From NCBI GenBank assembly GCA_022825595.1, contig JAJDWM010000308.1, forward strand, positions 1 to 34,648: DNA of 34,648 bases, read 5' to 3'. This document shows, piece by piece, positions 1 through 22,967 of the stretch. A model generated the notes under the pieces. The model ran no database searches, had not been told where the DNA came from, and worked only from the letters and a program-made list of their open reading frames with translations. The DNA comes from Bryobacterales bacterium. Lineage in GTDB: Bacteria; Acidobacteriota; Terriglobia; Bryobacterales; UBA6623. The position numbers were made by a program, and so were the translations under genes. Positions within the stretch are counted from its first letter, which is position 1, and each line of letters starts with the position of its first letter.

Positions 1-1221
1 GACTTCGTCCATCCAATGTCCGTCACGGGGGACGTCCGCACGCTCGCAGTAGTGGTCCCACACGGCTCCCGAAGGCATGGAGTGCATCTGCTCAAGCAGC
101 GCTAGGCGCCCGGTGAAGTCACCGCTACGCTCCATCTCCAAGAGCATTGCGCGCGGCTCCAACAGCGCCATCAGCAGGGCCTTGAGCACGGCGCGGCTGC
201 CAATTACCCACGCTGCCACTCGGTTAATGCTCGCGTCGAAGAAGTCGAGCCCTATGTGCACCCGTCCTAAGCAGTCGCCCCTCACGACCTCCTTGGCGAT
301 CTCGCGGACCTCGTCCGAGAGAATCACCACGTGGTCGCTGTCCCAGCGTACGCCCCGGCTAACGTGCAGGAGCAGACGGTCGATCCACAGCAGCACTGCG
401 GAGATCTTGTCTGAGATGGTCTCCGTCGGATGGAAATGTCCAGCGTCGAGGCAAAGGACCTTGCCCCTCGATATGGCGTAGCCCAGATAGAACTCGTGCG
501 AGCCGACCACGTACGACTCGGAACCCAAGCCGAACAGCTTGCATTCCACCGCATCGAGGTTCTCGGAAGGGTCAAGCTGTTCTCGGAAGACTCTGTCGAG
601 CGATTCCGCCAGCCGCTCGCGGGGCGCTTGTCGATCGGCCGGCAGGTCCTTGTAGCCGTCCGGAATCCAGACGTTCGTGACGCAAGCCGCCCCGAGTCTT
701 CGGCCAAAGGAAGCGCCAACCCGCCGGCACGCTTGGCCATGCCGGATCCAGAACCTCCTAACGCCCCGGTCCGCATGGGACAGCGTGAACCCGTCTGACG
801 CTAGCGGGTGTGCGAAGAACGTGGGGTTGAAGTCCATGCCCTGAAGATCCTGCTGCAGTGCCCAGTCGCTCCATCGCGAAAAGTGCTCCGGCAGGAGCTC
901 GTCGCGGCCGACCGTCCGGCCACCTGTCTCCGCATAGATTGCGTGCAGGTTGAGCCGGTGCCGGCCAGGGATCAGCGAGAAAGCCTTCTCAATGTCCTGC
1001 CGTAGTTCATCCGGATTCCTGGCAGCGCCCGGATAAGTGCCTGTAACTGCGAGCCCGCCGCCGATCTCGGATTGGGCGCGCTCGAATCCACGAATGTCGT
1101 CGCCTTGCCAGCAGTGCAGCGACAACGGGACGGAGGCCAATTTGCGGACGGCGGCGTCACAGTCCACGCCAAGGGCCGCGTAGCGCTCTCGAGCTACGAT
1201 GTACTCCGTCGGCGCCGCCAA
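1..1221 (-). CDS. rhaA: L-rhamnose isomerase, C-terminus cut by window edge
   Basis: Converts L-rhamnose to L-rhamnulose, the first step of cytoplasmic rhamnose catabolism; the family uses divalent metal (Mn2+). The frame is open from the left edge to 1221 and reads along the whole E. coli RhaA sequence: SLHCWQGDD near the N-terminus, [76 protein letters not shown] and [19 protein letters not shown]. The His and Asp metal ligands lie in the DAGHFHPTE and GLDFFDAS motifs. About 407 codons are present and roughly 15 C-terminal residues are missing. An in-frame TGA at 1243-1245 limits the start; TTG at 1221 fits the length of E. coli RhaA best. A weak promoter-like TTGGCG-16-TATTCT ends at 1232, which would leave almost no leader, so the start is tentative. 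No other rhamnose gene is visible. Confidence 0.93.
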
Positions 1222-1366
1222 GGTCCAATCAAGAATAGCCGATCAGCACCGCCCGCCAATTGCTCGGTTGAGATGGCCGTTTGCCAGCCCGCAGCAGCCT
1301 TCTCGGCCAGCAAGCACGGACGAGAAGGCCCTCTGTGCGCCTCCGGCGTCAGTACCGTGCTGAATC

Positions 1367-1840
1367 CTATTCCTTGCGGAGTTGCTGCGACAGATAGAGC
1401 CCAAGGCCTGTGTCATCGATGATCTTAAGCTGCGACTCCAGCCAGTCCACGCGATCCTCTTCCTTCAGCAAGATGCGTTCCACCAGTTCTCTGGACGTGT
1501 CGTCATTCGCGGTCGTGCAGGTCGCGACGGCGTCGTTAGCGCAGGCCACGGTTGCGTTTGCCAGGTCCAGGTCATTGATGTGGATCTTCGCCACGTCCTG
1601 TCCTATCGCCATCTTGTAGGTGTCGCGAAGGCTGGGCATGCTCTCCAGGAACAAGATTCGGTCGATCAGCTCCTCGGCAAACACCATGTTCGCGATCGAG
1701 TCCTTGCGAATGTGCCGCGCCAGCCCTTCGTAGCCCCAGTCCAGGCACATGCGGGCGTGTAAGAAGGACTGGTTGATTGTGGTGAGCTGATACTTCAGCA
1801 GCGACTTGAGCGCGGCCAGTGCCTTGGGGTGTCCCTTCAC
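1367..1840 (-). CDS. bfr: Bacterioferritin lacking most ferroxidase ligands
   Basis: Ferritin-like haem protein of the bacterioferritin family (24-subunit iron-storage shell). From GTG at 1840 it has 157 residues, against 158 in E. coli Bfr, and aligns without gaps (TINQSFLHARM, LIDRILFLESMPSL, RVDWLESQL). The frame stays open upstream to 1897, but that extension has no counterpart in Bfr; AAGGAAAG lies about 15 bases before the GTG. In E. coli numbering the haem ligand Met52 is kept, while ferroxidase ligands are changed: Glu18 to Gln, Glu51 to Asn, His54 to Phe, Glu94 to Ala and His130 to Arg. Only Glu127 remains. It therefore resembles the catalytically silent, haem-binding subunit known from two-subunit bacterioferritins, and a ferroxidase-competent partner would be expected elsewhere. 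Separated from rhaA by 145 bp on the same strand. Confidence 0.93.
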   Translation of the reverse strand: MKGHPKALAALKSLLKYQLTTINQSFLHARMCLDWGYEGLARHIRKDSIANMVFAEELIDRILFLESMPSLRDTYKMAIGQDVAKIHINDLDLANATVACANDAVATCTTANDDTSRELVERILLKEEDRVDWLESQLKIIDDTGLGLYLSQQLRKE

Positions 1841-2453: not shown

Positions 2454-4028
2454 TTACAACGGCTGCGCGAGGTTGTAGATGGCTTCCTCGTGCAGCGGGT
2501 CGAGCGATAGCACTTTCTCCCAGCGCTGAACAGCGTCTCGTGTCAGTCCAGCCTCATTCATCGCTAGGGCCAATTCGTGGTGCAGCTGCGGATTCGACCC
2601 GTCGGCCTCGACGGCAGAGCGCAGAACTTCGACCGCTCGCTCGGTATTCCCGGCCTCTCGCTCGATCGAGGCCATCAACTGGAGGGCAGGTACGAAGCGG
2701 CTGTTCAGCCCGATGGCGGTCGCGAGTGCCTCTCGTGCTGTGTCGCGCCTGCCCACATCTCGCAGCGCGCGGCCGCGATTGTAGTGCGCTCGGAATGAGC
2801 CCGGCTCGATGGCTGCGGCATTCTCGAACTCCGCCAGGGCTTCAGAGTGGAGTCCGGACTCCGCAAGCGCGCTGCCCAAGTCGAGCCGCGCCGCGGCTGA
2901 CGATGGTTCCTGCTGGACGATCCACTCAAAGTGTGGCCTTGCCTCTCGGGACCGGCCTAAGCGGGCCAGCACCATTCCAAGAGCCTTTCTCGCACCGGCA
3001 AACTCTGGGGAGACCGTGACAGCGTGATCGATCCTCTCCAGCGCTGCTGCGAAGTCGCCCGCCTCAGCGAGTTTGAGGCCAAGGTTCAAGTGGGCCTCGG
3101 CATACAGCGGATCGAGCGCCGCCGCCTTCTCAAACATCGCCCGGGCCAGACTTCCGGCACCGAGCGATTCGTAGGCCATACCGAGGTTGCCGAGCGCATG
3201 GGCGTGCTCTGGGTCGAGGCGCAGAACTTGTTGGAGCAGATCCTTGGCCTTGGTTGCGTCTCCGGCTTGCAAGCTGGTCTTGGCTTGGTCCACCAGCAAG
3301 TTGACCTGCATCTCGCGCTGTGCTTCCTGCCGGATTGCTGAGAAGGCGGCGAGTTCTCGATATGCCTCGTCGGACCGCCCCAGTCGGGCCAACACCTTGG
3401 CCTTTCGGTAGCGCACGTCCGAGTTGCGTCCGTCCAAATTGGCTGCCTTATCGAGCCAGCGGAGGGCCTGCTCGGGCATGCGCATTTCATCCAGCACAGC
3501 GCCCATGTTCAACAGGGCGTCCGCATGGCCCGGTCTAATCTCGAGGGCTGTTTGCAGCTCCTGCCGGGCTGCCTTCCGTCGCCCGAGGCGCCGGAGCACG
3601 AGTCCGCGGAGGTAGTGCAATTCAAACGATTGGGAGTCCTCTCCCGCCAACGATGCAAACCGCTCGGATTCGTCTAGGGCATCCGTATATTGGTGCAGGC
3701 TCAGCAGCACCATTGCGAGCGCCAAATGAGCTGCTGGTGGCGAGCTGCCTATGCCGATGCCCTTCCTGAGGGCCACTCCCGCTTCCTCGTAGCGGCCTGC
3801 CTCGGCCAGTAGCGTTCCGCGTTCAAGGTACCCTTCGGGCCGGTCCGGGAATTCCGCGACCGCGCGATCCGCTATTCTCAGCGCTGCTTCGGTGTCGCCT
3901 ATCCCACGAGAACGCTGGATGTCGGCCAAGTAGTCGTGGATCGTCTGGGCGTCGCCGCTGGCCGCCGCGACGACGCAAGCGAGGCTTGCTCGCAGACCTG
4001 ACCGCAACGCCCCGCGCAGCACTCCCAC
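2454..4028 (-). CDS. Exported TPR-repeat protein, shortened by in-frame stop
   Basis: A 524-residue protein with a signal peptide at about 1-27 (hydrophobic stretch ending ASGDAQ), then TPR units to the end (for example AHALGNLGMAYESLGAGSLA and AEAHLNLGLKLAEAGDFAAA). TPR arrays are protein-binding scaffolds, here probably periplasmic or membrane-attached. The start is GTG at 4028, 71 bp after the stop of TonB receptor 1 on the same strand, so the two are probably co-transcribed. It is colinear with the second half of the 859-residue TPR protein at 14782. The TAA at 2454-2456 falls inside the conserved region and homology continues beyond it; without the stop the product would be about 638 residues. 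The short form keeps most repeats and may be functional or be an early pseudogene. Confidence 0.85.
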   Translation of the reverse strand: MGVLRGALRSGLRASLACVVAAASGDAQTIHDYLADIQRSRGIGDTEAALRIADRAVAEFPDRPEGYLERGTLLAEAGRYEEAGVALRKGIGIGSSPPAAHLALAMVLLSLHQYTDALDESERFASLAGEDSQSFELHYLRGLVLRRLGRRKAARQELQTALEIRPGHADALLNMGAVLDEMRMPEQALRWLDKAANLDGRNSDVRYRKAKVLARLGRSDEAYRELAAFSAIRQEAQREMQVNLLVDQAKTSLQAGDATKAKDLLQQVLRLDPEHAHALGNLGMAYESLGAGSLARAMFEKAAALDPLYAEAHLNLGLKLAEAGDFAAALERIDHAVTVSPEFAGARKALGMVLARLGRSREARPHFEWIVQQEPSSAAARLDLGSALAESGLHSEALAEFENAAAIEPGSFRAHYNRGRALRDVGRRDTAREALATAIGLNSRFVPALQLMASIEREAGNTERAVEVLRSAVEADGSNPQLHHELALAMNEAGLTRDAVQRWEKVLSLDPLHEEAIYNLAQPL

Positions 4029-4099: not shown

Positions 4100-7000
4100 T
4101 CAGAAGTACAGCTTCAAGCCCATCTGGATCTGCCGCGCCCGATTCGCAGTCCGGAGCACTCGTCCGAAGTTTCGGTGGCTCAGGTTGGCTACTGGAGCGG
4201 CGTACTGGGGCGAGTTGAACGCATTGTAGAACTCAACTCGGTACTCGGCCTCGAACCTCTCGCCAGCCCTGAAGATCTTGAAGAACGAGAAGTCGACATT
4301 GTTGATCCCGTCGGCTCTCAGGGTGTTGCGACCGGCATTGCCGAACGTGCCGGTCTGCGGCACGGCGAAGGCGCTCGTGTTGATCCATGCCGCAGGCGTT
4401 GGATTGGAGAGGTTGGGATCACCGACGAAGTCCGGGCGGTAACGGCCGTTCGGCAGGCCTGTCCCGGCGATGTCTCCATTGACATTCGGCGTGTATGGTT
4501 GGCCCGACGTGAACAGCGCCAGCCCGTTGAACTTCCAGCCACCAAGGACGGCTTGTGCTGCCGGGTTCGCGAACTCGAACGGCAATTCGAACGTCCAGTT
4601 CATGTTCAGATTGTGCGTCAGGTCGATTCCCAACAGGCTGCGGTCCATGTTGAAGTTGTAGGGGTTCTGCTGCGAGCAGTTCTCGACGAACCAACCCGTG
4701 CAGCCGATATCGATGGCCTTGGCCCACGTATAGTTGACCATGAACGCCAGCCCACGCGAGAACCTCCGGTTGTATTGGGTCTGCAGGGAGTGGTAGCTGC
4801 TCCGTCCCCAAGAAGTGAGGTAGTTGTTGGCACGGAACAGCGGAAACGGCGCACGTTGGCGAGCTTCTGAACGCCTGCCCGGAGTGAGCGCGACGTTGTA
4901 ATAGGTGCCGAGCGGCAGCCGCCGCGAGCCGGACCCGACATAGTTGACCGAGAGGACCGTCGCTTCGTCGAGTTGCCGCTGGATGCCAAAGTTCCACTGC
5001 ATGGAGTAGGCGTTGTCCATCCGCGGGTCCGAATACCAGGCCCCTTGGTTGTACGGGGTGGCGGTCGGAAGGATCCCGGTGGGTGCTGGATTCTTGGCCG
5101 AGACGTTGGGAATGGTGTCCGCAGGATTCGTGCCGTTCTGAAGCTTCCGACCGACATCTGGCCACGTGTGCCCAAGGTTCTGGGTGTTTTGCGTCACTCC
5201 CGCGAAGTTCTCGAAGAAGACGCCGGATGAGAATCGCAGGGCCGTCCGGTCGTTCAGGCGATAGGCCAAGCCGAGCCGTGGCTGCCAGCTCAGCGGCCAC
5301 GGATCTTGCACGTATCCGTTCGCGGCAACCTGCACCCTGTCCGGGAGGGCCCCGCTCGGGTCAGGCAGGCACGGCGCGACTAGCTTGACTTCGCAGGTGG
5401 GCGGGGCGGCGGTGATCCAGAAGATGCCATCGTTGTAGTCGATGTTCCCGAACTCGACCGTGTTCTCTTCCGGGTTGCCGAACTGGGGCAGGACTGTGCT
5501 GTCCAGCCGCAGCCCGAAGTTGATTGTGAGCTTGGAAGTGGCCTTCCAAGAGTCCTGCGCGAAGTAGGACCACAGCGCACCTCCGCGGGCGCGCTTGTGG
5601 AAGTCGCGCCGGGACCAGGCGTTCGGCACGTTGAGCAGCAGGGACGCGATGGGATGGCCGGTGCTCCCCGGGCTGTCCGGACTGGCAGTGCCGACTGTCG
5701 AGAAGTTGTTGGAGTGGTCGTTCGTCCTGCCGAAGTGCCCGATGATGTTGTACTCCGCACCGAACTTCAAGGTATGGGTCCCGATGATCTTTGTGTAGGT
5801 GCCCTTGTACTGCCAAGTGTCGCTCGTGCGCGTGTAGCCGATGCGCTCCCCGCCGCCAAAGTACTGGGCCACGCCGACGTTGGGAACGTAGGAATCGCCC
5901 CCACGGAACCCGCCCGCAAAGTCCGGGTTCCAGCCCACCGTCGAAATGAACCCGTCCGGGAGGCTGACAAAGTCGTTGCCGGTGTCGCGGATTACGTCTG
6001 TACGTGCGAAGGAGACCTGCAGGATGCTCGATGGGTCGAAGGTGTGGACCCAATTCGCCGCGACGTTCAGGTTGTCGATGTTCACGAAGCTAACGAGACC
6101 CTGCCTGCCTCCCGTACCCGTCCGGTCACTGTTCTGGGCACTGACGCGAACAAAGACGGTGTCGGCATCGCTGAAGCGGTGATCCACACGTCCCGAGTAT
6201 TCCCACTGGTCTAGCGACGTCCCTGTCGTATCCCTCTGGTTCAGGTTGCCTAGGTCAGTGCCGAGATCGACCGGCATCGGGACAGTCTGGTCCAAGTAGT
6301 GCAGGAATCCCTGGTCCAGCCGGCTCTGAGGTATGACGTTGCCGGGGAAGGGGTCCCGGACCGCATTCCCGTCAGGCCCCATGCGTGTCGAATATGGGTC
6401 GAAGATCTGACGCGCCGAGTTGCTCAGGTCTCCCTGCCGATTTGCCGCCGTCGGCACCTGGTAGTTGCGGTTCGCCGGCGTACGGTTAGTGAATCCTTGG
6501 AACGCTCCGAAGTAAAAGGTCTTGTTGCTGACCAGTGGTCCCCCGACTGTGCCGCCGAACATGTTCTGGGCCAAGGCTGCCTTGTCCCTGAGGAACGTGT
6601 CTCGAGCGTCTAGGTTGTCATTGCGCAGGAACCACCACAGCCGGCCGGTGATGTCGTTTGTGCCGCCTTTGCTGACGACGTTGATCACCCCACCTGTGAC
6701 CCCTCCGAATTCGGCTAGGTCGTTGTGCGACTGGACCTTGAACTCCTGAATCGCGTCGATGATCGGCGGAACGGCGTAGGTGCTAGTCATCGTTCCTTGG
6801 TTGTTCACGCCGTCGGTAAGAAACAGGTTGCTCCGATTGTTCTGGCCGTTGATGGACGGGAAGCTGAAGGTTCCGACCGACGTGCTCCCGAATCCCCCCC
6901 GGCTTTGGGCAACGTTGACAGGCGACGCCCCAGGCGAGAGCATGAGCAGCTGGGTGAAGTTGCGCCCGTTCAGCGGCAAGTCGACCACTTGCTGCTCTGT

Positions 7001-7450
7001 CATCGCCGTTCCCAGTTCGGAGGAGGAGGCCTGCACTTGCGCGCCAATCGCTTCGACAGTCACGGACTCGGTCACCGCCCCGACCTCGAGCACGATGTCG
7101 AAAGTGGCAGTCTGGTTGACCGTTAGCACGAACGGCTCGATGGCCGCCGTGCGGAAGCCGTCGGCGCTGGCTTCGATCGTGTAGTATCCCGGCGGGATAT
7201 TGACGTAGACGTAGCGTCCGACCGCATTGGTCTCCGACCGATGCTCGATCCCGGTCTCGACGCTGGTGAGGACTACTTGTGTTCCTGGGACAATGGCACC
7301 CTGCGGGTCCGTCACGGTCCCGTTCACGGCCGAGCTGGATGCTTGGCCGTACGCTGGCGTGTTGATTGTGGCGACTAGCAGCGCCGCCAACGCCGCCGCG
7401 ACGCACCCTCGCAAGCCAGCTGAGAAATGAGCAAGCTGATCTATCTTCAT
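4100..7450 (-). CDS. TonB-dependent receptor 1 (Oar-type)
   Basis: Outer-membrane TonB-dependent transporter or adhesin of the Oar-like group, 1,116 residues. A signal peptide covers about residues 1-36 (ending PAYGQ). A carboxypeptidase-regulatory-like beta-sandwich follows at about 40-125 (AVNGTVTDPQGAIVPGTQVV). The plug carries VVDLPLNGRNFTQLL and FLTDGVNNQG, and a long barrel ends in the aromatic C-terminus LKLYF typical of outer-membrane proteins. The ATG at 7450 has a strong ribosome binding site (AGAGGGG). A TPR gene follows 71 bp downstream on the same strand, and a CRTAC1-like gene diverges across a 131-bp intergenic region. It is a close paralogue of the receptor at 10434-13790 over its whole length. 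The substrate cannot be told; such receptors take up large or scarce substrates such as glycans, peptides or metal complexes. Confidence 0.95.
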   Translation of the reverse strand: MKIDQLAHFSAGLRGCVAAALAALLVATINTPAYGQASSSAVNGTVTDPQGAIVPGTQVVLTSVETGIEHRSETNAVGRYVYVNIPPGYYTIEASADGFRTAAIEPFVLTVNQTATFDIVLEVGAVTESVTVEAIGAQVQASSSELGTAMTEQQVVDLPLNGRNFTQLLMLSPGASPVNVAQSRGGFGSTSVGTFSFPSINGQNNRSNLFLTDGVNNQGTMTSTYAVPPIIDAIQEFKVQSHNDLAEFGGVTGGVINVVSKGGTNDITGRLWWFLRNDNLDARDTFLRDKAALAQNMFGGTVGGPLVSNKTFYFGAFQGFTNRTPANRNYQVPTAANRQGDLSNSARQIFDPYSTRMGPDGNAVRDPFPGNVIPQSRLDQGFLHYLDQTVPMPVDLGTDLGNLNQRDTTGTSLDQWEYSGRVDHRFSDADTVFVRVSAQNSDRTGTGGRQGLVSFVNIDNLNVAANWVHTFDPSSILQVSFARTDVIRDTGNDFVSLPDGFISTVGWNPDFAGGFRGGDSYVPNVGVAQYFGGGERIGYTRTSDTWQYKGTYTKIIGTHTLKFGAEYNIIGHFGRTNDHSNNFSTVGTASPDSPGSTGHPIASLLLNVPNAWSRRDFHKRARGGALWSYFAQDSWKATSKLTINFGLRLDSTVLPQFGNPEENTVEFGNIDYNDGIFWITAAPPTCEVKLVAPCLPDPSGALPDRVQVAANGYVQDPWPLSWQPRLGLAYRLNDRTALRFSSGVFFENFAGVTQNTQNLGHTWPDVGRKLQNGTNPADTIPNVSAKNPAPTGILPTATPYNQGAWYSDPRMDNAYSMQWNFGIQRQLDEATVLSVNYVGSGSRRLPLGTYYNVALTPGRRSEARQRAPFPLFRANNYLTSWGRSSYHSLQTQYNRRFSRGLAFMVNYTWAKAIDIGCTGWFVENCSQQNPYNFNMDRSLLGIDLTHNLNMNWTFELPFEFANPAAQAVLGGWKFNGLALFTSGQPYTPNVNGDIAGTGLPNGRYRPDFVGDPNLSNPTPAAWINTSAFAVPQTGTFGNAGRNTLRADGINNVDFSFFKIFRAGERFEAEYRVEFYNAFNSPQYAAPVANLSHRNFGRVLRTANRARQIQMGLKLYF

Positions 7451-7581
7451 CGTGACCCCTCTTTAGTCGTGTGCCCGGCGGAAACCTGACTCTTGGCTTC
7501 CTATTTCGCTGGCGCCCACCGCCCGCGGCTACAGTGTATCCGATAACGGAGGCGCTTGCGCCAATCAGGAACGAGCTTTTG

Positions 7582-9375
7582 ATGAACCCTTTACGAGGCA
7601 GGGCATGTGCTGATATTCAGTCGCTGTGTTTCATTGGCGTTGCACTGTCCACAATCCCGGGATCGCTGGTCGGCCAAGGGATGGCCGGGGCTGGGAAGCG
7701 GGACCTGCCCTCGATACCGCTGCCGGCCGACTTGACCCCGCCAAAGGTGGACTTCGCGGACGTGGCATCCCAAGCCGGGCTCACGTCCGATTGGCCCGCA
7801 ATCGAGATCTCCCACATGCGCTACCTCCCTGAGACAACCGGAGGAGGTGTTGCGCTGGTGGATCTGAACAACGACGGCCTTCTCGACGTCTTCCTAGTCG
7901 GAACTGGCGGGCAAGGAGCGGACCCTGTCGCCGTGCCGCACTCTGTCTTCCTGAATCGGGGTGCCTTGCGCTTCGAACGTGCGACTCGCGGCTTTTCGGT
8001 CGGGCCGACCGGCTGGGGGCAGGGAGTCTGTGCCGGAGACGCAGATTCCGACGGCTACACGGACCTGTTCGTCACGCACTGGGGCAGGGACGTCTTGCTG
8101 CGCAACTTGGCGGGAGAGGGCTTCCAAGATGAGGCCGTTGACAGGGGTGTGTCCGGTCCGGCCGGACGCTGGAGCACCGGCTGCAGCTTCTTGGACTTTG
8201 ACCGAGACGGGGATCTCGACCTGTTTGTCGCCCACTACGTGGACTTCGACCCGGCAAGCACGCCGCTGCCGGGCGCTGCGCCGCAGTGCGAATGGCGCGG
8301 GGCACCAATACCGTGCGGCCCTCGTGGCCTGGCTGCCGAGTCGATGTCGCTATTCGAGAACAGGGACGGCCTATTCCGAGACGTGACCGAGAAGGCCGGC
8401 GTGAAGACGGCGCGGCGTCATCACGGCCTTGGCGTCGCGGCGGCAGACTATGACGGGGATGGCTGGACGGACGTGTTCGTGGCGTGCGACTCCACGGCAA
8501 ACCTCTACTTCCGGAACACGGGAAACGGCTCGTTTGTCGAGACAGCCCTGCTTGCCGGAGCTGCGTATGACGAAGACGGCCGCGAGCAGGCCGGTATGGG
8601 CGTCGCGGTGGCCGACGCAGACGGGGACGGATCCTTGGACGTGTTTCAGACCAACTTTGCAGCGGACACGAACACCCTGTACCGAAATCGGGGCGACGGC
8701 CGGTTCCGCGACAGCACTGTGCGCTCAGGTCTAGGGACTGTCGCTCGGTATGTCGGCTGGGGCTCAGAGTTCCTCGACGTCGACCACGACGGCTGGCCGG
8801 ACATTCTGGTCGCGAACGGCCACGTCGCGCCCGGTGTCGAGAGCGGGGGAAACGGGGAGACGTTTGCCCAGCCCCGCCAGCTGTTCTGGAATCTGGGCGG
8901 CGGCAACTATCACCCTCTCTCGGATGTTGCCGGCCCCGGGATCGCCGCCAGCCATCCGTCGAGGGGTTCGGCGGTCGGAGACCTCGACAACGACGGCGAT
9001 CTGGAGATCGTGGTCGCGAACATTGAACAGCCGCCGTCTCTGCTGCATAACCGCGCGGAAGGGCTGGGGAATTGGCTGGTCGTTCGGGTGCTCTCACCCT
9101 CGGGTGGCGACGCGATCGGAGCGCGAGTCGCCGTCACGGTCGCCGGCAGGACTCTTGTGTCTGAGGTCCGTAGCGGCGGCAGCTATCTCTCTCAGGGTGA
9201 CTTCCGGCTGCATTTTGGATTGGGTGATGCCGAGTCCGCCACGGTAACTGTGCGCTGGCCCTCGGGCAGTGAGGCCACGGTCGAGGCAGTGCCCGCTCGG
9301 ACATTCTTGGAAATGGACGAGTCCGTTGGCATCGCGGGTGGCACGGCACCGTTCGCCAAGTTGAATCTCGAGTGA
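7582..9375 (+). CDS. Exported VCBS/FG-GAP and ASPIC/UnbV (CRTAC1-like) protein
   Basis: 597 residues from ATG at 7582, chosen over an upstream extension because AGGA lies 11 bases before it and the product then begins with a signal-peptide-like stretch (SLCFIGVALSTIPGSLVGQG). Seven calcium-binding-type repeats follow: DLNNDGLLDVFL near residue 94, then DADSDGYTDLFV, DFDRDGDLDLFV, DYDGDGWTDVFV, DADGDGSLDVFQ, DVDHDGWPDILV and DLDNDGDLEIVV. These form a beta-propeller of the integrin-alpha/FG-GAP type. Residues about 497-580 are an ASPIC/UnbV domain (GARVAVTV, VRSGGSYLSQGDFRLHFGLG, VTVRWPSG). Proteins of this design are secreted or surface-bound and often lie near TPR and TonB genes in Acidobacteriota. 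Its exact role is unknown; carbohydrate or matrix binding is a guess. Confidence 0.93.
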   Translation: MNPLRGRACADIQSLCFIGVALSTIPGSLVGQGMAGAGKRDLPSIPLPADLTPPKVDFADVASQAGLTSDWPAIEISHMRYLPETTGGGVALVDLNNDGLLDVFLVGTGGQGADPVAVPHSVFLNRGALRFERATRGFSVGPTGWGQGVCAGDADSDGYTDLFVTHWGRDVLLRNLAGEGFQDEAVDRGVSGPAGRWSTGCSFLDFDRDGDLDLFVAHYVDFDPASTPLPGAAPQCEWRGAPIPCGPRGLAAESMSLFENRDGLFRDVTEKAGVKTARRHHGLGVAAADYDGDGWTDVFVACDSTANLYFRNTGNGSFVETALLAGAAYDEDGREQAGMGVAVADADGDGSLDVFQTNFAADTNTLYRNRGDGRFRDSTVRSGLGTVARYVGWGSEFLDVDHDGWPDILVANGHVAPGVESGGNGETFAQPRQLFWNLGGGNYHPLSDVAGPGIAASHPSRGSAVGDLDNDGDLEIVVANIEQPPSLLHNRAEGLGNWLVVRVLSPSGGDAIGARVAVTVAGRTLVSEVRSGGSYLSQGDFRLHFGLGDAESATVTVRWPSGSEATVEAVPARTFLEMDESVGIAGGTAPFAKLNLE

Positions 9376-10433: not shown

Positions 10434-13400
10434 CTAGAAGATGAACTTCAATCCCAGTTGGAACTGTCGGGCACGCCGCTGCGTCGCCGTCACGACTCCG
10501 AAGTTGCTTCTACTGAGATTCTGTACCGGGATTGCGAAGTCCGCGTGGTTGAACGCGTTGAATGCCTCGGCCCGGAATTGCAGCTTCATGCCCTCCCGTC
10601 CAGGCAATGGAAAGTCGCGGAATAGGGACAGGTCGAAGTTCGTCACCCCATCAGAGCGCAAGGCGTGTCGGCCCGAGTTGCCAAACGTGAACGGTGCGGG
10701 TGCGCTGAATGCGTCTGTATTGAACCAGCGCGACGGAGTGGGATTGCTCAGGTGAGGCTCCCCGACCTGGTCGGCCCGCATGTAGCCGTTCCGATTGCGC
10801 GTGTTGGCAATGTCGCCACTGACGTTGATGTGGTACGGCCGCCCAGAATAGAGATTGGCGATGCCGTTAATCTGCCAGTTCCCCACGATGTAGTCGGCAA
10901 CCTTACTGCCGGTCGACTTCATTCCGGGACCTATCGGAATCCGGTAGACCCAGTTAAAGTTGAAGATGTGGGTCAGGTCGTGACCCGCCACGCCCTTGTC
11001 ACGGACGTGATCATACGGTGTCTGGGTGGAGCACCCCTCGACGTTGTACCAGCCGTCGCAGGCGAGGTTGATCGTCTTGGACCACGTGTAGTTCACCATG
11101 TAGGTGAAGGCGCGCGATCGCTTCGTCAACTGGAACTGGAAGGCGTTGTAGTTGGCCCTTCCAACGCTGCGCTGCCAGAATGTCGGCACGATGAACGGGT
11201 ACGGGCTACGGTCAGCCGGATCCCCGGGCCCCGGCGTCAGCGCCGTGTTGTAGAAGTGGTCGAGCGGCGCCCGGCGATTCGCTGATCCGACGTAATTCGT
11301 GGAGATCAGCGTGTCGTCCGTGAGCTGGTGCTGGAGGCCAAAGTTCCACTGCATCGAGTACTGGTTCTTAACGCTCGGGTCCGCGTACCATGCCACACGG
11401 TCGAACGGTGTCGGGCCCGGCAGCAGGCCGGCCGGGAAGGGGTTCTTTGCCGAGACCCCGGGGATCGGCCTTCCGCTCGTCGGTGTGTTCAGGTTGCCGG
11501 ACTGCTGCTGGCCGACGTCGGGCCAGGTGTGCCCTTGGGCCTGCATCATCTGGTTCATCCCGGCCCAGCTGTCATAGAAGATGCCACCTGACATTCGCAC
11601 CGCGGTCCGTTGACTCACCCGATAGGCGATTCCGACTCGCGGTTGCCAGTTGTCTGTCCAATCCTCGATCAGCCGCTGCGTGGGTGAAACGCGCACCTCA
11701 TCGGGCAAGCTGCCGTCCGGGGTCGGTATGCAAGGTGCCGCCTTGAGGGCGGCGCACGAGTCGGGCTGTGCCTGGATCACGTATAGGCCCCCATGGACGC
11801 GCTCGAAGTCCGGAGTCCCCGCAAAAATGCCCTTGTCGTCGTACGAGCCGACCCTCGGACTCCACGTCCGGTCGTAGCGCAAGCCGATGTTCATGGTCAG
11901 CTTGGGGGTGACCTTCCAGTTGTCCTGCAGGTAGAACCCTCCGATCGCGCCCCGGTGCAGGCGTTTGAAGAAATCCCGCCGTCCCGCGTTGTTTGGCACA
12001 TTGAGCAGCCATGAAGCAAGCGGACTACCACCGGTGTTGGTCTGAGGATCCGCCGTATTGGCCGGTACGAACTGGACGTTGTGGTCGTTCGTGATGCCAA
12101 AGTGCCGATTCGTGCTGTACTCGGCACCAAACTTCAGTTGGTGGTTACCCATGATCTTGGTGAAGTTCCCTTTGTACGAGTAGATGTCGGACGTGCGGTT
12201 GTTTGCGACTCGCTCTCCCCCGCTGAAGAACTGGCCAACGTTGACGCTCGGTGTCAGAGCGAGGTCGCTCCTGAAGCTACAGCAGAACAGCGGCTCAAAG
12301 CCGAAGCTCGTGGGATCCACGTCACTCGCGAACTCGCTGCCCGTGTCGCGGTTGATGAGCGTCCGACCGAACTGGAACTGAAGGATGCTGGTCGGGCTGA
12401 ACGTGTGGACCCAGCTGGCCCCAATATTCAATGTCCGGACATTGACGAGGCTACCCAGCCCCTGCCGCCCTGCGGATCCCGTCTGGCCGAGGTCCGACCA
12501 GCTCATGCGTCCCCATACCATGTCCCGCGCACTGAAATTGTGATCCCCGCGGACGTTGAACTCGTCTTGGTCCAGGGATGAGTTCGTCGTGTCGAGTTGG
12601 TTGCGGTCGGCAACGCCCGTAGCGATGGGCTTGGGGATCGTTGTCTGGGCGTAATTGACGAATCCGGCATCGAGCCGGGATTGCGGGATCATGTTGTTTG
12701 CGAACGGGTCACGCACGAAAGTACCCGTCGCGGCGTCCTCGCGGGTGGACTGCGGGTCGTAGATTTGGGCCGGCCAGTCGCTGTGGTCTCCGGCCAAGTT
12801 CGCGTCCGTCGGAACGCGGTAGAGGCGGTTTGCAGGTGTCCGTCTCTTGAAGCCCTGCCAGGCGAAGAAATAGAACGTCTTGTTCCGGACGGCCGGGCCT
12901 CCGACGGTGGCTCCATACATGTTCTGCGAGAGAGGCACCACGTTCCTGCGGAAAAAGTTCCTGGCGTCGAAGTTGTCATTGCGCATGAATTCCCACAGCG
13001 TGCCGTGCACTTGGTTGGTGCCCGACTTGGTGACAACGTTGACGATGCCACCCGTTCCCTGTCCGAACTCCGCTTGGTCGTTATGGGTCTGAACCTTGAA
13101 TTCTTGGATCGCGTCGATGATCGGTGGCGTGGCGTAGGTGCTGACCATCGAGCCGTGGTTGATCACCCCGTCGGTGAGGAAGAAGTTGCTCCGATTGCTC
13201 TGGCCGTTCATCGCCGGAAACGCGAACTCGCCGATGGCCGAACTGCCAAAGCCTCCCCGGTTCTGAGAAGTGCTAATTGGTGACGCGCCCGGGGTGAGGG
13301 TCAGCAGCTGGGTAAAGTTCCGACCGTTGAGGGGCAGGTCAACCACTTGGTTCTCGGCCATGACAGACCCCAGTTCGGCAGTCGAGCTCTGCACCTCGGC

Positions 13401-13790
13401 ACCGACAGCCTCCACAGTCACAGTCTCCGCCACGGCGCCAATCTCAAGGGCGAAGTCAAGGGTCGCGGTTTGGTTCACCGCGAGCGTGAACGGCTGGAGC
13501 GAGCTGGTGCGGAATCCGTCCTTGCTCGCCGACAAAATGTAAGTCCCAGGCGTGATGCTGACGAACGTGTATACGCCGACCGAGTTGCTCGCGCTGCGAC
13601 GCTCAACCCCGGTCTCGACGTTCTGTAGGACTAGGTCGGACTCGGGCACGACCGCGCCGGTTGCGTCCCGTACAGTGCCGTTGACAGTGGCAGTAGATAC
13701 TTGGGCCCACAAGTGGCTGGGCGCTACCAGCAAGCACGCCATTCCGAGGGCCAGAGCGATTCCGATTCCCAATGTAAAATGCGATTTCAT
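10434..13790 (-). CDS. TonB-dependent receptor 2 (Oar-type)
   Basis: 1,118-residue outer-membrane receptor of the same subfamily as receptor 1. A signal peptide covers about 1-30 (ending HLWAQ), followed by a carboxypeptidase-regulatory-like domain at about 34-120 (TVNGTVRDATGAVVPESDLV). The plug has VVDLPLNGRNFTQLL, TPGASP and FFLTDGVINHG, and the barrel ends in LKFIF. The ATG at 13790 follows a purine-rich ribosome binding site (GGGGAAGGAAG). A consensus-like promoter lies at 13895-13923, giving a leader of about 100 bases, and a 24-bp perfect palindrome lies upstream of that. The gene is followed by a hairpin and diverges from the TPR gene at 14782. Its similarity to receptor 1 points to duplication and then separate substrate choice. 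Confidence 0.95.
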   Translation of the reverse strand: MKSHFTLGIGIALALGMACLLVAPSHLWAQVSTATVNGTVRDATGAVVPESDLVLQNVETGVERRSASNSVGVYTFVSITPGTYILSASKDGFRTSSLQPFTLAVNQTATLDFALEIGAVAETVTVEAVGAEVQSSTAELGSVMAENQVVDLPLNGRNFTQLLTLTPGASPISTSQNRGGFGSSAIGEFAFPAMNGQSNRSNFFLTDGVINHGSMVSTYATPPIIDAIQEFKVQTHNDQAEFGQGTGGIVNVVTKSGTNQVHGTLWEFMRNDNFDARNFFRRNVVPLSQNMYGATVGGPAVRNKTFYFFAWQGFKRRTPANRLYRVPTDANLAGDHSDWPAQIYDPQSTREDAATGTFVRDPFANNMIPQSRLDAGFVNYAQTTIPKPIATGVADRNQLDTTNSSLDQDEFNVRGDHNFSARDMVWGRMSWSDLGQTGSAGRQGLGSLVNVRTLNIGASWVHTFSPTSILQFQFGRTLINRDTGSEFASDVDPTSFGFEPLFCCSFRSDLALTPSVNVGQFFSGGERVANNRTSDIYSYKGNFTKIMGNHQLKFGAEYSTNRHFGITNDHNVQFVPANTADPQTNTGGSPLASWLLNVPNNAGRRDFFKRLHRGAIGGFYLQDNWKVTPKLTMNIGLRYDRTWSPRVGSYDDKGIFAGTPDFERVHGGLYVIQAQPDSCAALKAAPCIPTPDGSLPDEVRVSPTQRLIEDWTDNWQPRVGIAYRVSQRTAVRMSGGIFYDSWAGMNQMMQAQGHTWPDVGQQQSGNLNTPTSGRPIPGVSAKNPFPAGLLPGPTPFDRVAWYADPSVKNQYSMQWNFGLQHQLTDDTLISTNYVGSANRRAPLDHFYNTALTPGPGDPADRSPYPFIVPTFWQRSVGRANYNAFQFQLTKRSRAFTYMVNYTWSKTINLACDGWYNVEGCSTQTPYDHVRDKGVAGHDLTHIFNFNWVYRIPIGPGMKSTGSKVADYIVGNWQINGIANLYSGRPYHINVSGDIANTRNRNGYMRADQVGEPHLSNPTPSRWFNTDAFSAPAPFTFGNSGRHALRSDGVTNFDLSLFRDFPLPGREGMKLQFRAEAFNAFNHADFAIPVQNLSRSNFGVVTATQRRARQFQLGLKFIF

Positions 13791-17722: not shown

Positions 17723-20056
17723 GTGTATCTGAATTGCCCAGTTCGTCGGCTGGCGGCGGTCTTGGTTGCGGCTGTCGGTCCCCTCTCCGCGATCGGTGCG
17801 GAACCGCACAGAGAACTGGTAGACAGCTACTGCGTCGCGTGCCACAGCGAGTCGCTGCGAACCGCGGGACTCGCGCTGGACGAGCTGGCGGCTAGGCCGA
17901 TAGATGAGGACCGCAGCGCTTGGGAAACCGTAGTCCGGAAGCTGCGCGGCCGCCACATGCCCCCCGTCGGCCTTCCCCGTCCAGATGAGGCCACGTACGC
18001 ATCCGTGGTCGTGTGGCTTGAGGAGCAGCTGGACGCTGCGGCGGCCCGGAACCCGGATCCGGGCCGGACCGAGACCTTCCGGCGCCTGACCCGCACCGAG
18101 TACCGGAACGCAATCCGAGACCTGCTGGAGTTGGATGTCGATTTGTCGACCGTTCTGCCGCGCGACGAGTCCAGTTCGGGGTTCGACAACATAACTGTCG
18201 GAGACCTCTCGCCAGCCTTGCTGGAGGCCTACGTGGCCGCCGCCGACAGCATCTCGCGCTTAGCGCTTGGACGCCCCGTGCCGACACCAGAGGTCCGGAC
18301 CTTCAAGATGAGGCCCGACTTGACCCAAGAGTGGCCCGTGGAGGGATTACCGCTCGGGACGCGAGGCGGAACGTTGGTGAAGCACACCTTCCCCGTGGAC
18401 GGGGACTACGAGATCATCGTGCGTCTCGCTCGCGACCGTGACGAGCAGATCGAGGGACTGCGTGTGCCGCACCAGCTCGACCTGCTTCTGGACGGCGAGA
18501 GGATCCGCCTGTTCGATGTCCTGCCGCCCCGGCGCGTCGGCGATCACGACGACGTCGACCAGCACCTGCGTGCGCGCCTCCCGGTCCGCGCCGGGACACG
18601 GGAGATAGCGGCGACGTTCCTGAAGCAGCCTTGGAGTGTGCTCGAGACGGACCGGCTGCCATATCAGGCCCACTTCAACGTGTACCGGCATCCCCGCGTC
18701 CAACCCGCGGTGTACGAGGTCACGATCATGGGACCGTACGGGCCCACTGGTCCCGGTAACACCGCCAGCCGCGAGCGCATCCTGACTTGCGGTCCCGATT
18801 CCGACGATGGGCCGGAGGGCTGCGCCAAGGAGATCGTGGCGAATGTGATGCGCCAGGCGTTTCGACGGGAAGTCACCGCCTCTGACCTTGAGGGGCCACT
18901 GGAGTTCTTTCGGGACGGCCTTGCCGAGGGTGGGTTTGAGGCGGGGATCGAGATGGCGCTGTCGTCGATTCTGATAAGCCCCGACTTTCTGTTCCGCATC
19001 GAGCGCGACCCGCCAAGTGTCGCCCCTGGTACGCCCTATCGGCTCAGCGATGGCGAGATCGCCTCACGCCTGTCGTTCTTCCTCTGGAGCAGCATCCCAG
19101 ACGAGGAGTTGCTGGACGCCGCGAGATCAGGCCAGCTACGGAATCCTGAGATCTTGGGGGGCCAGGTTCGCAGGATGCTCGCGGACACGCGTTCATCGGC
19201 GCTCCTGACCAACTTTGCCGCACAGTGGCTGCACCTGCGCAATTTGGATGCGGCGGAGCGGGACATGCGGCTCTTCCCCAGCTTCGACGACAACCTCCGC
19301 CAGGCGATGCGGCGTGAGACGGAGCTGTTTCTCGACAGCGCCATCCGGGACGACCGCAGTGTGCTGGACCTGCTCTCGGCGGACTACACGTTCCTGAACG
19401 AGCGGCTCGCGCGGCATTACGGTATCCCGCACGTATACGGCAGTTGGTTTCGAAGGGTTGACTTGGGGCAGGGCAGTCGCCGAGGGGGATTGCTCCGTCA
19501 CGCGAGCATCCTGACCGTCACCTCCTACAGCACGAGGACTTCGCCCGTGATCCGCGGCCACTGGATACTGGAGAACCTGCTAGGAGTCCCGCCTCCGCCT
19601 CCGCCTTCCGAAGTGCCGGCGCTCGAGGACCAGCCGATTGCGGCTGGATTGTCAGTACGAGAGCGGCTCGAACGCCACCGCGCTGACCCCGCATGCGCGA
19701 GCTGCCACGCGCTGATGGACCCCGTGGGCTTCGCTCTGGACAACTATGACGCGGTTGGGCGCTGGCGGACAACTGACGGCGATGCTCCGGTGGATGCCGT
19801 AGGGAATTTCCCTGGCGGGCCGACCTTCGAAGGCCCAGATGGCCTCGAAAAGGCGATTTTGGAGCGGTCCGACCTGTTTGTGAACGCCCTGGCGGAGAAG
19901 CTCCTGACGTATGCTCTAGGCAGGGTTGTTGGGCCGCTTGACGCACCGGCTGTTCGGAGGATCGTTCGGGAGGCGAGCGAAGACAAGTTCCGCTTTTCCT
20001 CGCTCATACTCGCGGTGGTCAAGAGTGACCCATTCCAGATGAGGAGAACGCGATGA
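17723..20056 (+). CDS. DUF1592-family (DUF1587/1592/1588/1585) c-type cytochrome
   Basis: 777 residues from GTG at 17723 (GGAG 12 bases upstream), beginning with a signal peptide (LAAVLVAAVGPLSAIGA). A CVACH haem c motif lies at residues 37-41 and a second, CASCH, at about 658-662, so it should be a periplasmic dihaem protein. Between them are the usual domains of this family: DUF1587 (FRRLTRTEYRNAIRDLLELD), DUF1595 (AFRREVTASDLEGPLEFFRD), DUF1592 (YRLSDGEIASRLSFFLWSSI) and DUF1588 (RRGGLLRHASILTVTSYSTR). A C-terminal DUF1585 (LLTYALGRVVGPLDAPAVRR) completes the order known from Planctomycetes and Acidobacteriota. The function is unproven; oxidation of a sugar-like or other organic substrate is often suspected. 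Its stop overlaps the start of the DUF1552 gene by 4 bp. Confidence 0.92.
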   Translation: MYLNCPVRRLAAVLVAAVGPLSAIGAEPHRELVDSYCVACHSESLRTAGLALDELAARPIDEDRSAWETVVRKLRGRHMPPVGLPRPDEATYASVVVWLEEQLDAAAARNPDPGRTETFRRLTRTEYRNAIRDLLELDVDLSTVLPRDESSSGFDNITVGDLSPALLEAYVAAADSISRLALGRPVPTPEVRTFKMRPDLTQEWPVEGLPLGTRGGTLVKHTFPVDGDYEIIVRLARDRDEQIEGLRVPHQLDLLLDGERIRLFDVLPPRRVGDHDDVDQHLRARLPVRAGTREIAATFLKQPWSVLETDRLPYQAHFNVYRHPRVQPAVYEVTIMGPYGPTGPGNTASRERILTCGPDSDDGPEGCAKEIVANVMRQAFRREVTASDLEGPLEFFRDGLAEGGFEAGIEMALSSILISPDFLFRIERDPPSVAPGTPYRLSDGEIASRLSFFLWSSIPDEELLDAARSGQLRNPEILGGQVRRMLADTRSSALLTNFAAQWLHLRNLDAAERDMRLFPSFDDNLRQAMRRETELFLDSAIRDDRSVLDLLSADYTFLNERLARHYGIPHVYGSWFRRVDLGQGSRRGGLLRHASILTVTSYSTRTSPVIRGHWILENLLGVPPPPPPSEVPALEDQPIAAGLSVRERLERHRADPACASCHALMDPVGFALDNYDAVGRWRTTDGDAPVDAVGNFPGGPTFEGPDGLEKAILERSDLFVNALAEKLLTYALGRVVGPLDAPAVRRIVREASEDKFRFSSLILAVVKSDPFQMRRTR

Positions 20057-21384
20057 TCGTCACCAAGAAGACACTGCCGCGGCGCACCGTATTGCGCGGG
20101 ATCGGCACGTCTGTGGCCCTGCCACTGCTGGATGCGATGGTTCCGGCCATGACCGCACTTGCGGCCACGGCGGCCACCCCGGTGCGGCGCCTCGGATACA
20201 TCTATGTTCCGATGGGATCCGACGTCAAGCGCTGGACTCCGCCGCGGCAGGATTCGCTCGCCGAGCTCTCGCCGATCCTGCGGCCCATCGAGCCACACAA
20301 GGACCATGTCACGGTCTTGACGAACATGGAGCTGCGCAACGCCTACCCTGGCACGCACGCAACCTCCAACTCGGCCTACCTGAGCTGTGCCAAGGCCAAA
20401 CTGACGGAGAGCACTGACTATTACTTGGGCACGACCGTCGACCAGATTGCCGCAAGGGAGATTGGCCAGGATACGCCTATCCCGTCACTCGAGCTCGGTA
20501 TGGACATGCTCGATGTTGTCGGACAGTGTGACGACGGATTTGCCTGCGTCTACCAGAACAACCTCTCGTGGTCTTCCCCGACGACTCCGCTGCCCTATGA
20601 GGCGCACCCGCGCAACGTCTTCAACCGGCTCTTCGGTGAGGGCACGCCAGAGCAGCGCGCCCGGGCGCTGCGGAAGAAGGCCAGCATGCTCGACCGCTTG
20701 CGGGGAGACATCGCCCGTCTCCGGCGAGAGCTCGGCACTGGCGACTTGATGAAGGTTGAGCAGTATCTCGACAGTGTGCGGGAGGTCGAGAGACGCATCC
20801 AGATCGCCGAGGCCGGCATCGAGGACGCGCCGCAGCCTGACATCGAGCGGCCCGCCGGAGTTCCGGCGAAGTACGCCGATCATGTGCGCCTGATGTTTGA
20901 CCTGCAGGTGCTGGCAATGCAGGCCGACCTGACGCGCATCATCACGTTCCAGCTCGCGCGGGAAGGCAGCACGCGCAGCTATCCCGAGGTTGGCGTGACG
21001 GAGCCGCACCATCCTCTGACGCACCACGGCAACAATCCGGAAATGGTGGCGAAGGTAGCCAAGATCAACGAGTACCACGTCTCGCTGTTCGCGTATCTCC
21101 TCGGCCGTCTCAAGTCCACGCAGGACGGGGACGGCTCGCTGCTCGACCACTGCATGTACCTCTACGGGAGCGGAATGGGCGATCCCAACAAGCACGACCA
21201 CGTCAATCTTCCGATCATGGTCGCCGGTGGCGGTGCAGGCCGGCTCAAGGGCGGCCGTCACATCCGCTACGAGCGGGGTACGCCTCTGGCCAATCTTCAC
21301 CTGACATTGCTGGAAAAGGTTGGCGTGCGGATGGACTCTTTTGCGGACAGCCATGGCAAGGTGGAGGAACTGCTTTCCATATGA
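20053..21384 (+). CDS. DUF1552 protein with Tat-type signal
   Basis: 443 residues. The N-terminus PRRTVLRGIGTSVALPLLDA is a twin-arginine-like signal, implying export of a folded, possibly cofactor-bearing protein. The rest follows the DUF1552 pattern: YIYVPMGSDVKRWTP, TVLTNMELRNAYPGTHATSN, a central coiled-coil-like helical stretch (RALRKKASMLDRLRGDIARL), TRIITFQLAREGSTRSYPEV, HHPLTHHGNNPEMVAKVAKI and MYLYGSGMGDPNKHDHVNLP. The layout recalls the alkaline-phosphatase-like DUF1501 family, and conserved His/Asp residues could bind metal, but no activity is established. It starts at ATGA overlapping the cytochrome stop and ends at ATGA overlapping the ankyrin gene, so translation of all three is probably coupled. 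Confidence 0.93.
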   Translation: MIVTKKTLPRRTVLRGIGTSVALPLLDAMVPAMTALAATAATPVRRLGYIYVPMGSDVKRWTPPRQDSLAELSPILRPIEPHKDHVTVLTNMELRNAYPGTHATSNSAYLSCAKAKLTESTDYYLGTTVDQIAAREIGQDTPIPSLELGMDMLDVVGQCDDGFACVYQNNLSWSSPTTPLPYEAHPRNVFNRLFGEGTPEQRARALRKKASMLDRLRGDIARLRRELGTGDLMKVEQYLDSVREVERRIQIAEAGIEDAPQPDIERPAGVPAKYADHVRLMFDLQVLAMQADLTRIITFQLAREGSTRSYPEVGVTEPHHPLTHHGNNPEMVAKVAKINEYHVSLFAYLLGRLKSTQDGDGSLLDHCMYLYGSGMGDPNKHDHVNLPIMVAGGGAGRLKGGRHIRYERGTPLANLHLTLLEKVGVRMDSFADSHGKVEELLSI

Positions 21385-22967
21385 CCGCGACCAAGCCCCG
21401 CGGCGGCTTTGATTCCAGCCTGCGACTCTTGGTCTGCACTGTTGGCCTGCTTACCGTCGCCAATGGGGCCATGGCTGGGGAGAGCGCCCTGCCGGACGCG
21501 GCCCAAGCTGGCAACAGCCAGATGGTGCGGACGCTGCTGGCAGGCGGAACCGACGCGAATTCGGTCCAGCGAGATGGCACCACGGCGCTGCATTGGGCAG
21601 CGAGAAACAACGACGCGTCCACTGCGGCTGCGGTCCTCAAGGCCGGAGCAGATGCCAATGCGCGCAATCGGTATGGGGTCACTCCGCTGAGCTTGGCCTG
21701 CACGAACGGCAGTGCGATCCTCGTGAGCTTGCTCTTGGATGCGGGCGCCGATCCAAACGCTGCACTGCCTGGCGGCGAGACACCGCTGATGACTGCAGCT
21801 CGCACTGGGCGGTTGGCCCCTGTTCGGGCTCTACTTGTCGCAGGCGCCGACCCGCATGCCACCGTCCAAGGGATGGGCCGCCAAGAGGGGGCGGGGGCGA
21901 ATTATTACCTAGCCCGACTCAGAGACCCGACGATACACGACTTCCGCCCAGATTCAGACCAGACTGCCTTGGTCTGGGCGGCGGCAGAGGGTCATGCAGA
22001 AGTGATCTCGGAGCTCATCGAGTTTGGTGCGGAGCATCGATTCGCCCTCCAGTCGGGCTTCACGCCGCTGCTGTTGGCAGTGCGCGGCGGTCATGTCGAT
22101 GCGGTCAGGGCGTTGCTGGAGGCCGGTGGGGATGTGAACGAGCGGATTGCTCCCGGCATTGACTGGCGCCACCCGGGCTACGACGCGAAGCTGCGGCCCA
22201 GCGCCACACCCTTGCACGTAGCGGTCGAGAACGGGCACTTTGAGCTGGGTGCCTATCTCCTCGAGGCGGGAGCGGACCCCAGTGCGGCTGACCGCGAAGG
22301 ATATACGGCGCTTCATGCTGTACCCGCCGCGCGTCGTGTGCCCCTGGGGGATGCCGATCCTGTGCCCAAGCCCACCGGCACCATGTCCAGTCTGGATTTC
22401 GTGAGAGTGCTGGTTGCCGCGGGAGCAGATCCGAACGCTCGGCTGAGTGGCACGGGCATCGTGAACCGGGGTGCTGTTGTGCTCGGGCCGACTGCCTTAC
22501 TCGGGGCCGTTCAGACTGGCGACGTTGAGCTTGCGAAAGCCCTGGTGGAGGTCGGTGCCGACCCACTGGCGAAGGACAACCAAGGCCGGACGGCAGTCAT
22601 GTTGGCCGGGTCCAGGACCGGCGAGGCGATAGAGGTAAACCAGCTGATCGACCTGTTGCTCGGCTGGGGTGTAGACATCGACGCTGTCGACAAGAACGGC
22701 GAAACTGCGATGCATGCCGCCGCGTACCGGGACCGCCCGGAGACCATCAAGTTGCTCGCCCGGCGGGGGGCCAGCGTGAGTGTCTGGAACCGCCCGAATC
22801 GGCACGGATCGACTCCGCTACTAATTGCCGCCGGATACCGAGGATCCGCCAGTTTTCGTCCTCAGCCGCGTGCGGAGGCGGCAATTCGCGGAGTCATGGC
22901 CGAGAGCGGCATCGACCCGCCCCCGGTGCTTGCACCGCCGGTTCAGCCGGCTCGAGCCGGGTATTGA
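21381..22967 (+). CDS. Exported ankyrin-repeat protein
   Basis: 528 residues with a signal peptide at about 1-32 (LRLLVCTVGLLTVANGAMAG). Ankyrin repeats run almost to the end: DGTTALHWAARNNDASTAAA, YGVTPLSLACTNGSAILVSL, GETPLMTAARTGRLAPVRAL, SGFTPLLLAVRGGHVDAVRA, SATPLHVAVENGHFELGAYL and GETAMHAAAYRDRPETIKLL. Ankyrin repeats bind other proteins; the signal peptide places this one in the periplasm. It is the third gene of the operon, overlapping the DUF1552 stop by 4 bp, which points to a structural or protective partner of the cytochrome/DUF1552 pair. A host-directed effector is less likely given its place in the operon. Confidence 0.92.
   Translation: MTATKPRGGFDSSLRLLVCTVGLLTVANGAMAGESALPDAAQAGNSQMVRTLLAGGTDANSVQRDGTTALHWAARNNDASTAAAVLKAGADANARNRYGVTPLSLACTNGSAILVSLLLDAGADPNAALPGGETPLMTAARTGRLAPVRALLVAGADPHATVQGMGRQEGAGANYYLARLRDPTIHDFRPDSDQTALVWAAAEGHAEVISELIEFGAEHRFALQSGFTPLLLAVRGGHVDAVRALLEAGGDVNERIAPGIDWRHPGYDAKLRPSATPLHVAVENGHFELGAYLLEAGADPSAADREGYTALHAVPAARRVPLGDADPVPKPTGTMSSLDFVRVLVAAGADPNARLSGTGIVNRGAVVLGPTALLGAVQTGDVELAKALVEVGADPLAKDNQGRTAVMLAGSRTGEAIEVNQLIDLLLGWGVDIDAVDKNGETAMHAAAYRDRPETIKLLARRGASVSVWNRPNRHGSTPLLIAAGYRGSASFRPQPRAEAAIRGVMAESGIDPPPVLAPPVQPARAGY

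Follow-up and report, generated by a model that had tools for sequence, protein, structure and literature searches.

A probable ferroxidase-dead, haem-binding bacterioferritin subunit conserved alongside a complete bacterioferritin in a Bryobacterales clade

The present study analyzes a bacterioferritin (Bfr) gene in a 34,648-nucleotide stretch of Bryobacterales DNA, hereafter the window, which is the entire contig C128 of a 6.0 Mb assembly (796 contigs, 87.8% complete). The gene probably encodes a ferroxidase-dead, haem-binding subunit, and a second Bfr with a complete set of ligands is encoded on another contig of the same genome, a pairing that recurs throughout a clade of 12 genomes. The reading we favor, to which we give a probability of roughly 0.57, is that the dead subunit is a bacterial analogue of the ferritin L-chain and co-assembles with the full Bfr into mixed cages. 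That the two chains co-assemble, that haem is bound, that the dead subunit has no ferroxidase activity, and that it has a tuning role are all things that we infer from the residues and from mixed cages known in other organisms.

The bacterioferritin gene lies at 1367..1840 on the minus strand, with a GTG start at 1840 and a stop at 1367-1369, and its 157 aa product begins MKGHPKALAAL; the assignment draws on TIGR00754, PF00210, a residue table, an AlphaFold2 model, and PDB superposition. The protein scored 157.2 bits against a cut-off of 125.55 on the NCBIfam bfr equivalog TIGR00754 and 72.8 bits on PF00210, and when aligned by MAFFT with E. coli Bfr (taken from NC_000913.3) it was identical at 62/157 positions with no gaps over 157 residues. 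An initial annotation, made from the sequence of the window, had claimed on a gap-free alignment that Met52 and Glu127 were kept while Glu18, Glu51, His54, Glu94, and His130 were all replaced, and this was borne out: relative to E. coli Bfr the changes are E18Q, E51N, H54F, E94A, and H130R, leaving E127 as the one remaining ferroxidase ligand of six, together with the haem ligand Met52. Further changes are Y25 to S and, at the inner-surface site formed by H46 and D50, H46 to K and D50 to A. The ligand loss could have proved illusory had a structural alignment placed the acidic and histidine residues elsewhere in the centre. The AlphaFold2 monomer (mean pLDDT 95.3, built from 36 sequences) matched 1bcf, the E. 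coli Bfr structure, at 1.0 A across 157 residues with Z 25.1, and because the superposed ranges are identical (1..157 on 1..157) the residue register is sound and the ligand positions are undisplaced in the model. Among the matches listed for this model, 50 solved PDB entries had Z of 24-27. The protein thus scores as a Bfr on the curated model and lacks the intrasubunit di-iron centre (E18, E51, H54, E94, E127, H130) expected of one; judged from its residues, descent and fold make it a Bfr, yet it does not belong under the catalytic ones. The label "bacterioferritin" that the curated equivalog model gives to the gene despite the lost catalytic site is a warning for annotation.

The gene had also been described as standing alone with no second bfr, which is correct within the window and incorrect for the genome. 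A PF00210 search of the assembly found exactly one additional ferritin-fold gene, on contig C274, and this was the second Bfr with intact ferroxidase ligands for which the initial annotation had advised a search. Its product has 162 aa, with E18, E51, H54, E94, E127, H130, and also Met52 all present, and is 44% identical (69/157) to the window Bfr. A xylose-isomerase-like TIM-barrel gene adjoins this full Bfr (L001 1150-2064). The further suggestion that haem binding and ferroxidase work are split between subunits in the published manner did not hold up, since the catalytic partner keeps Met52 in 13/13 full copies from the 12 paired genomes, and haem binding has therefore not been handed to one subunit. 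Besides Met52, the full partners carry F19, H23, and I/M26, so that their haem site may differ. Where the dead and full bfr genes share a contig they are 70 kb to 0.9 Mb apart. The single-contig genus genome, G008, has two full Bfrs (L039, L044) plus the ligand-poor one, with the second full gene situated 3.6 Mb along the contig.

Relatives were searched in 61 genomes, comprising the window's own and 60 others. A ligand-poor Bfr together with at least one full Bfr occurred in 11/11 genus genomes examined, with 66-95% identity to the window protein in the 10 relatives, and a genome from another genus of the same family (G014) also carries such a pair; these 11 genus genomes and G014 make up the clade of 12 members. 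Across 257 genomes of the order, a profile built from the clade scored 278-321 bits in the 12 clade genomes and never exceeded 203 bits in the others, and the next-best matches that were inspected (from G015, G017, and G011) were full Bfrs. Every one of the 12 members has lost 3 to 5 of the six ligands and kept Met52, so that the profile of a non-catalytic, haem-binding subunit proposed by the initial annotation is backed by sequence across the clade. Read in the order E18/E51/H54/E94/E127/H130, the ligand positions are QNFAER in the window's genome and its nearest relative (G007), ENFAER in eight others, ENFSER in G008, and EKHGEY in G014; loss of E18 is thus confined to the first two genomes, and E18 is kept in 10/12 members. 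The pattern N51/F54/A or S94/R130 occurs in all 11 genus genomes examined while 133/157 distinct Bfr rows gathered keep all six ligands, which argues that the pattern is not due to chance; those 157 rows were found with the window protein or the clade profile and hence are no random sample of Bfrs. By the Nei-Gojobori method, dN/dS among the ligand-poor genes had a median of 0.12 and a maximum of 0.29 (61/66 pairs finite), compared with a median of 0.09 among the full genes (78/78 pairs finite), and these low ratios indicate that the ligand-poor gene is under purifying selection and has been maintained.

The G014 copy (L015 1501-1968) has kept E18, H54, and E127, with E51 changed to K, E94 to G, and H130 to Y, and it carries Ser25. 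By its residues it resembles an intermediate, and it may capture the ferroxidase site partway through a stepwise loss; residual metal binding is conceivable for this member because of the three ligands kept. In the same order and another family, one genome (G042) contains a distant Met52-bearing Bfr-like row (L051) of 30% identity with E94D, E127K, and H130N, and has two full Met52-bearing Bfrs elsewhere. This row, which entered neither the trees nor the count of 12, is perhaps a second, separate case of ligand loss with the haem ligand kept. Two other rows (L084, L093) each have one changed ligand, E127, and were not classed as ligand-poor. Members of the order with two Bfr matches include G454, G489, and G552.

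The side of the protein concerned with haem is conserved. L19, I22, N23, F26, I49, M52, A55, and E56 are invariant in 12/12 clade members, and these are positions that we take to be haem-facing. Ferrochelatase was present in all four genomes in which it was sought, so haem presumably can be made. At the dimer face, residue 30 is arginine in 12/12 ligand-poor members and glutamate in 13/13 full partners and in 6/6 full Bfrs from other genomes of the family. Salt bridges in the haem dimer of P. aeruginosa BfrB join Arg30 to residues 56 and 60, and the Arg30-Glu60 bridge also occurs in the haem-binding SoBfr2 of S. oneidensis, as described in a section of PMC12120770. The conserved Arg30 of the dead subunit fits haem-bearing homodimers.

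Phylogenetic analysis used a quick tree of 157 rows and a careful tree of 68 rows from which eight trait columns and 89 rows were omitted. In both trees the ligand-poor clade formed one branch (100/100 in the careful tree) and nested among Bfrs of its own family, the latter with moderate support (88/92, and 86/72 at the next fork, in the careful tree). A single clade with the proteobacterial haem subunits that were gathered was rejected by the AU test at p 0.017, a value to be taken as indicative since the test was set up after the quick tree had been seen, and on this result kinship with those subunits was ruled out as a candidate explanation. The test did not reject (p 0.057) an arrangement with the ligand-poor clade as direct sister of the full partners. 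The dead subunit most likely originated within this Bryobacterales family when a Bfr paralogue diverged, as the sequences suggest, and given the rejection of a common clade and the placement inside its own family, the ferroxidase loss is most likely independent of the proteobacterial one.

Bacterioferritins with two kinds of subunit are known, and the closest likeness is to the TD type, represented by SoBfr12 of S. oneidensis (PDB 9IIG) and Bfr1/Bfr2 of M. gryphiswaldense MSR-1, in which a Met52-bearing chain with lost ligands is combined with a separate ferroxidase chain. According to parts of PMC12120770 and PMC6529640, the haem chain in these two species has reduced or lost ferroxidase function and the catalytic chain is without Met52; SoBfr2 has V94, K46, and D51 (PMC12120770), and MSR-1 Bfr2 has several ferroxidase-site residues mutated (PMC6529640). 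The difference is that TD-type genes are in tandem and their catalytic subunit lacks Met52, whereas in Bryobacterales the partner has kept Met52 and the genes are dispersed. The contrast was also evident when named genomes were scanned with the clade profile. Within the best 80 of 130 matches there were ten Pseudomonadota loci with a ligand-poor, Met52-bearing Bfr (three to six of six ligands changed), and among these best 80 of 130 a Bfr with six ligands and no Met52 adjoined the ligand-poor gene in 10/10 loci, and Arg30 was present in 10/10 of the tandem haem subunits; two of the ten (L112 and L128) are near-identical Silvimonas genes. A Met52-less Bfr neighbor was found at 0/12 Bryobacterales loci (flanks of at most 3 kb, shortened at some loci where the contig ended), and there was no second Bfr of any kind in flanks up to 3 kb of the 12 clade loci, so the tandem arrangement is lacking there.

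The DSD type, such as LsBfr1/LsBfr2 of Lysobacter soli, is alike in that two unlinked genes serve one presumed or shown cage. Its catalytic chain is haem-free, lacks Met52, and is Ftn-like, and no PF00210 match in the 12 genomes is of this kind. FtnA/BfrB of Pseudomonas aeruginosa is reportedly a comparable case of a two-gene cage, and the Acinetobacter baumannii Bfr/Ftn complex 9bts may be compared, by its entry title, as a two-gene cage with an Ftn chain. With homo-Bfrs (E. coli Bfr, P. aeruginosa BfrB, Azotobacter vinelandii Bfr) the window protein shares fold, length, Met52, and the haem-side residues, and it differs from them in being without E18, E51, H54, E94, H130, and Y25. To the vertebrate ferritin L-chain it is similar in outline, that chain being isostructural with a catalytic sister chain and having no ferroxidase site (from part of PMC7762939); unlike the L-chain, the window protein belongs by sequence to the bacterioferritins and has a haem ligand, and its co-assembly is putative. 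Searches of PMC full text, among them searches on bacterioferritin in Acidobacteria, Bryobacter, or sponge, brought up no description of a Bfr without ferroxidase paired with a Met52-bearing partner, which is no proof of absence.

Under the favored reading, a Bfr paralogue whose ferroxidase ligands decayed and whose Met52 and haem side were held would join the full Bfr of contig C274 in mixed 24-mers. Fe2+ would be oxidised solely at the full subunits, and the dead subunits would supply part of the shell and of the cavity surface, along with haem sites through which electrons could reach the core. Haem would be possible in every dimer, unlike in the published hetero-Bfrs, and the mixing ratio of the subunits would set ferroxidase density with haem density unchanged. 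The PF00210 complement of the 11 genus genomes consists of these Bfrs only, save for a Dps-like gene in G005 (7% contamination), so the full Bfr is the one available partner for a mixed cage. Precedent comes from passages of PMC12120770, where different Bfr and Ftn subunits co-assemble on co-expression, and of PMC6529640, where M. gryphiswaldense Bfr2, which is missing several ferroxidase residues, assembles but shows little ferroxidase activity. Against the mixed cage speaks the low identity of the partner, only 44%. The charges at the dimer face, with E30 of the partner meeting E56/D60 of the dead subunit, may disfavor mixed dimers; homodimers can share one cage, as in SoBfr12 (PMC12120770, in part). 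Joint regulation of the dead and full bfr genes is unproven because the genes are unlinked. More broadly, and with somewhat less than even confidence, we propose a third class of two-gene Bfr, in which the cage is haem-complete, ferroxidase alone is lost from one paralogue, the density of oxidation sites is tuned, and the haem reductant is something other than Bfd.

The main rival explanation, which we consider unlikely though well ahead of the others, is that the dead subunit assembles into a separate homo-24-mer, haem-loaded and without ferroxidase, acting as a haem store, redox hub, or slow iron store beside a homo-Bfr. The unlinked genes are consistent with this, as is the dimer face, whose charge differs from that of the partner (R30 vs E30) and is like that in haem-binding Bfrs that pair with themselves. 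M. gryphiswaldense Bfr2, without a ferroxidase centre, was mostly oligomeric when expressed alone, as reported in a portion of PMC6529640, and on this precedent the dead subunit need not have a partner. However, PMC12120770 describes the S. oneidensis haem-binding subunit alone as yielding no iron-storing complex, and ferritin-family subunits with similar interfaces as mixing readily, both of which count against a separate cage. It is improbable that the site is altered but active, with E127, E18 (in 10/12 members), H87, and D114 binding Fe or Zn for slow oxidation or regulation. H87 and D114 are indeed invariant in 12/12 clade members and rare in full Bfrs (10/123 and 6/123, respectively), and in the helix register of ferritin folds H87 would presumably lie near S25, one layer from the old site; but five of six ligands are gone from the window protein, including both histidines and the bridging E51, Y25 has been lost too, and R130 adds positive charge at the old site.

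A very improbable account is that the protein is the haem subunit of a hetero-Bfr of published type, tandem or dispersed, shared with or acquired from Proteobacteria, and that its haem-free partner was missed. The best PDB match by both sequence and structure was chain M of 9iig, the SoBfr12 cage, though it was tied with ordinary Bfrs; we take this chain to be SoBfr2 because the aligned letters show D51, M52, and V94. This account is difficult to reconcile with a partner that has Met52 in 13/13 copies and is not in tandem, or with the AU result against a clade shared with the haem subunits of Proteobacteria. A PF00210 search of the 12 genomes (the window's own being 87.8% complete) gave no Met52-less Bfr and no Ftn, the Dps-like gene of G005 being the one match besides these Bfrs, and G008, with one contig and 98% completeness, points to no Met52-less ferritin chain. 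Least probable, and hardly to be entertained, is a decaying or misassembled gene without function. The window's genome is fragmented and incomplete, but the frame is open with dN/dS near 0.1, and both the position before rhaA and the ligand pattern are conserved in 11 genus genomes, one of them a single contig. A pseudogene or an assembly artefact was ruled out on this conservation and on purifying selection.

Downstream of bfr is rhaA, encoding L-rhamnose isomerase (1..1242, minus strand, cut by the contig end; PF06134, E 2.4e-194). The two genes are within about 0.6 kb of each other in 9/12 clade loci and 2.4 kb apart in G001, and in G002 and G005 the ligand-poor bfr is less than 450 bases from a contig end; rhaA was not found in the flanks of the other Bfr loci examined, those flanks being only 0.3 to 3 kb. 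The rhaA-bfr linkage is conserved in the clade, and a functional tie is a candidate only. Upstream of bfr are a 524-aa TPR-repeat protein (2454-4028), a large outer-membrane beta-barrel protein with a carboxypeptidase-regulatory domain (4100-7450; PF25183, PF13620), and an FG-GAP repeat protein with an ASPIC/UnbV domain (7471-9375). Long frames similar in size to that of the beta-barrel protein are found at 10434-13790 and 30556-33924, and a PF25183 protein is also upstream of bfr in L061. At 20053-22967 a DUF1552 (HXXSHH) protein is followed by a 528-aa ankyrin-repeat protein, the stop of the former overlapping the start of the latter.

The absence of a bacterioferritin-associated ferredoxin (Bfd), noted at the outset for the window, extends past it, with no Fer2_BFD match in the window's own genome (87.8% complete) and no stand-alone Bfd above the family cut-off in the 12 genomes (11 genus genomes and G014). 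Those Fer2_BFD matches above the cut-off in the genus and G014 were all inside long open frames (738-1,087 aa); the one frame that was scanned is a NirB/NirD nitrite reductase. Two matches in G006 were below the cut-off (E 0.0025, in 134 aa with an internal stop, and E 0.009, in 193 aa). A nearby bfd gene, which is a tendency of hetero-Bfrs and no strict rule, was likewise not found in the 12 genomes.

If the proposed third class is real, the Bryobacterales pair would mean that bacteria re-invented the system of H- and L-chains independently. The tandem hetero-Bfrs published so far trade haem against ferroxidase, in whole or in part, between their subunits, as portrayed in sections of PMC12120770 and PMC6529640, while in the Bryobacterales pair ferroxidase seems to have been given up and haem retained. 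The pair would thereby separate the two losses, and may offer a natural system for an L-like chain in a haem cage.
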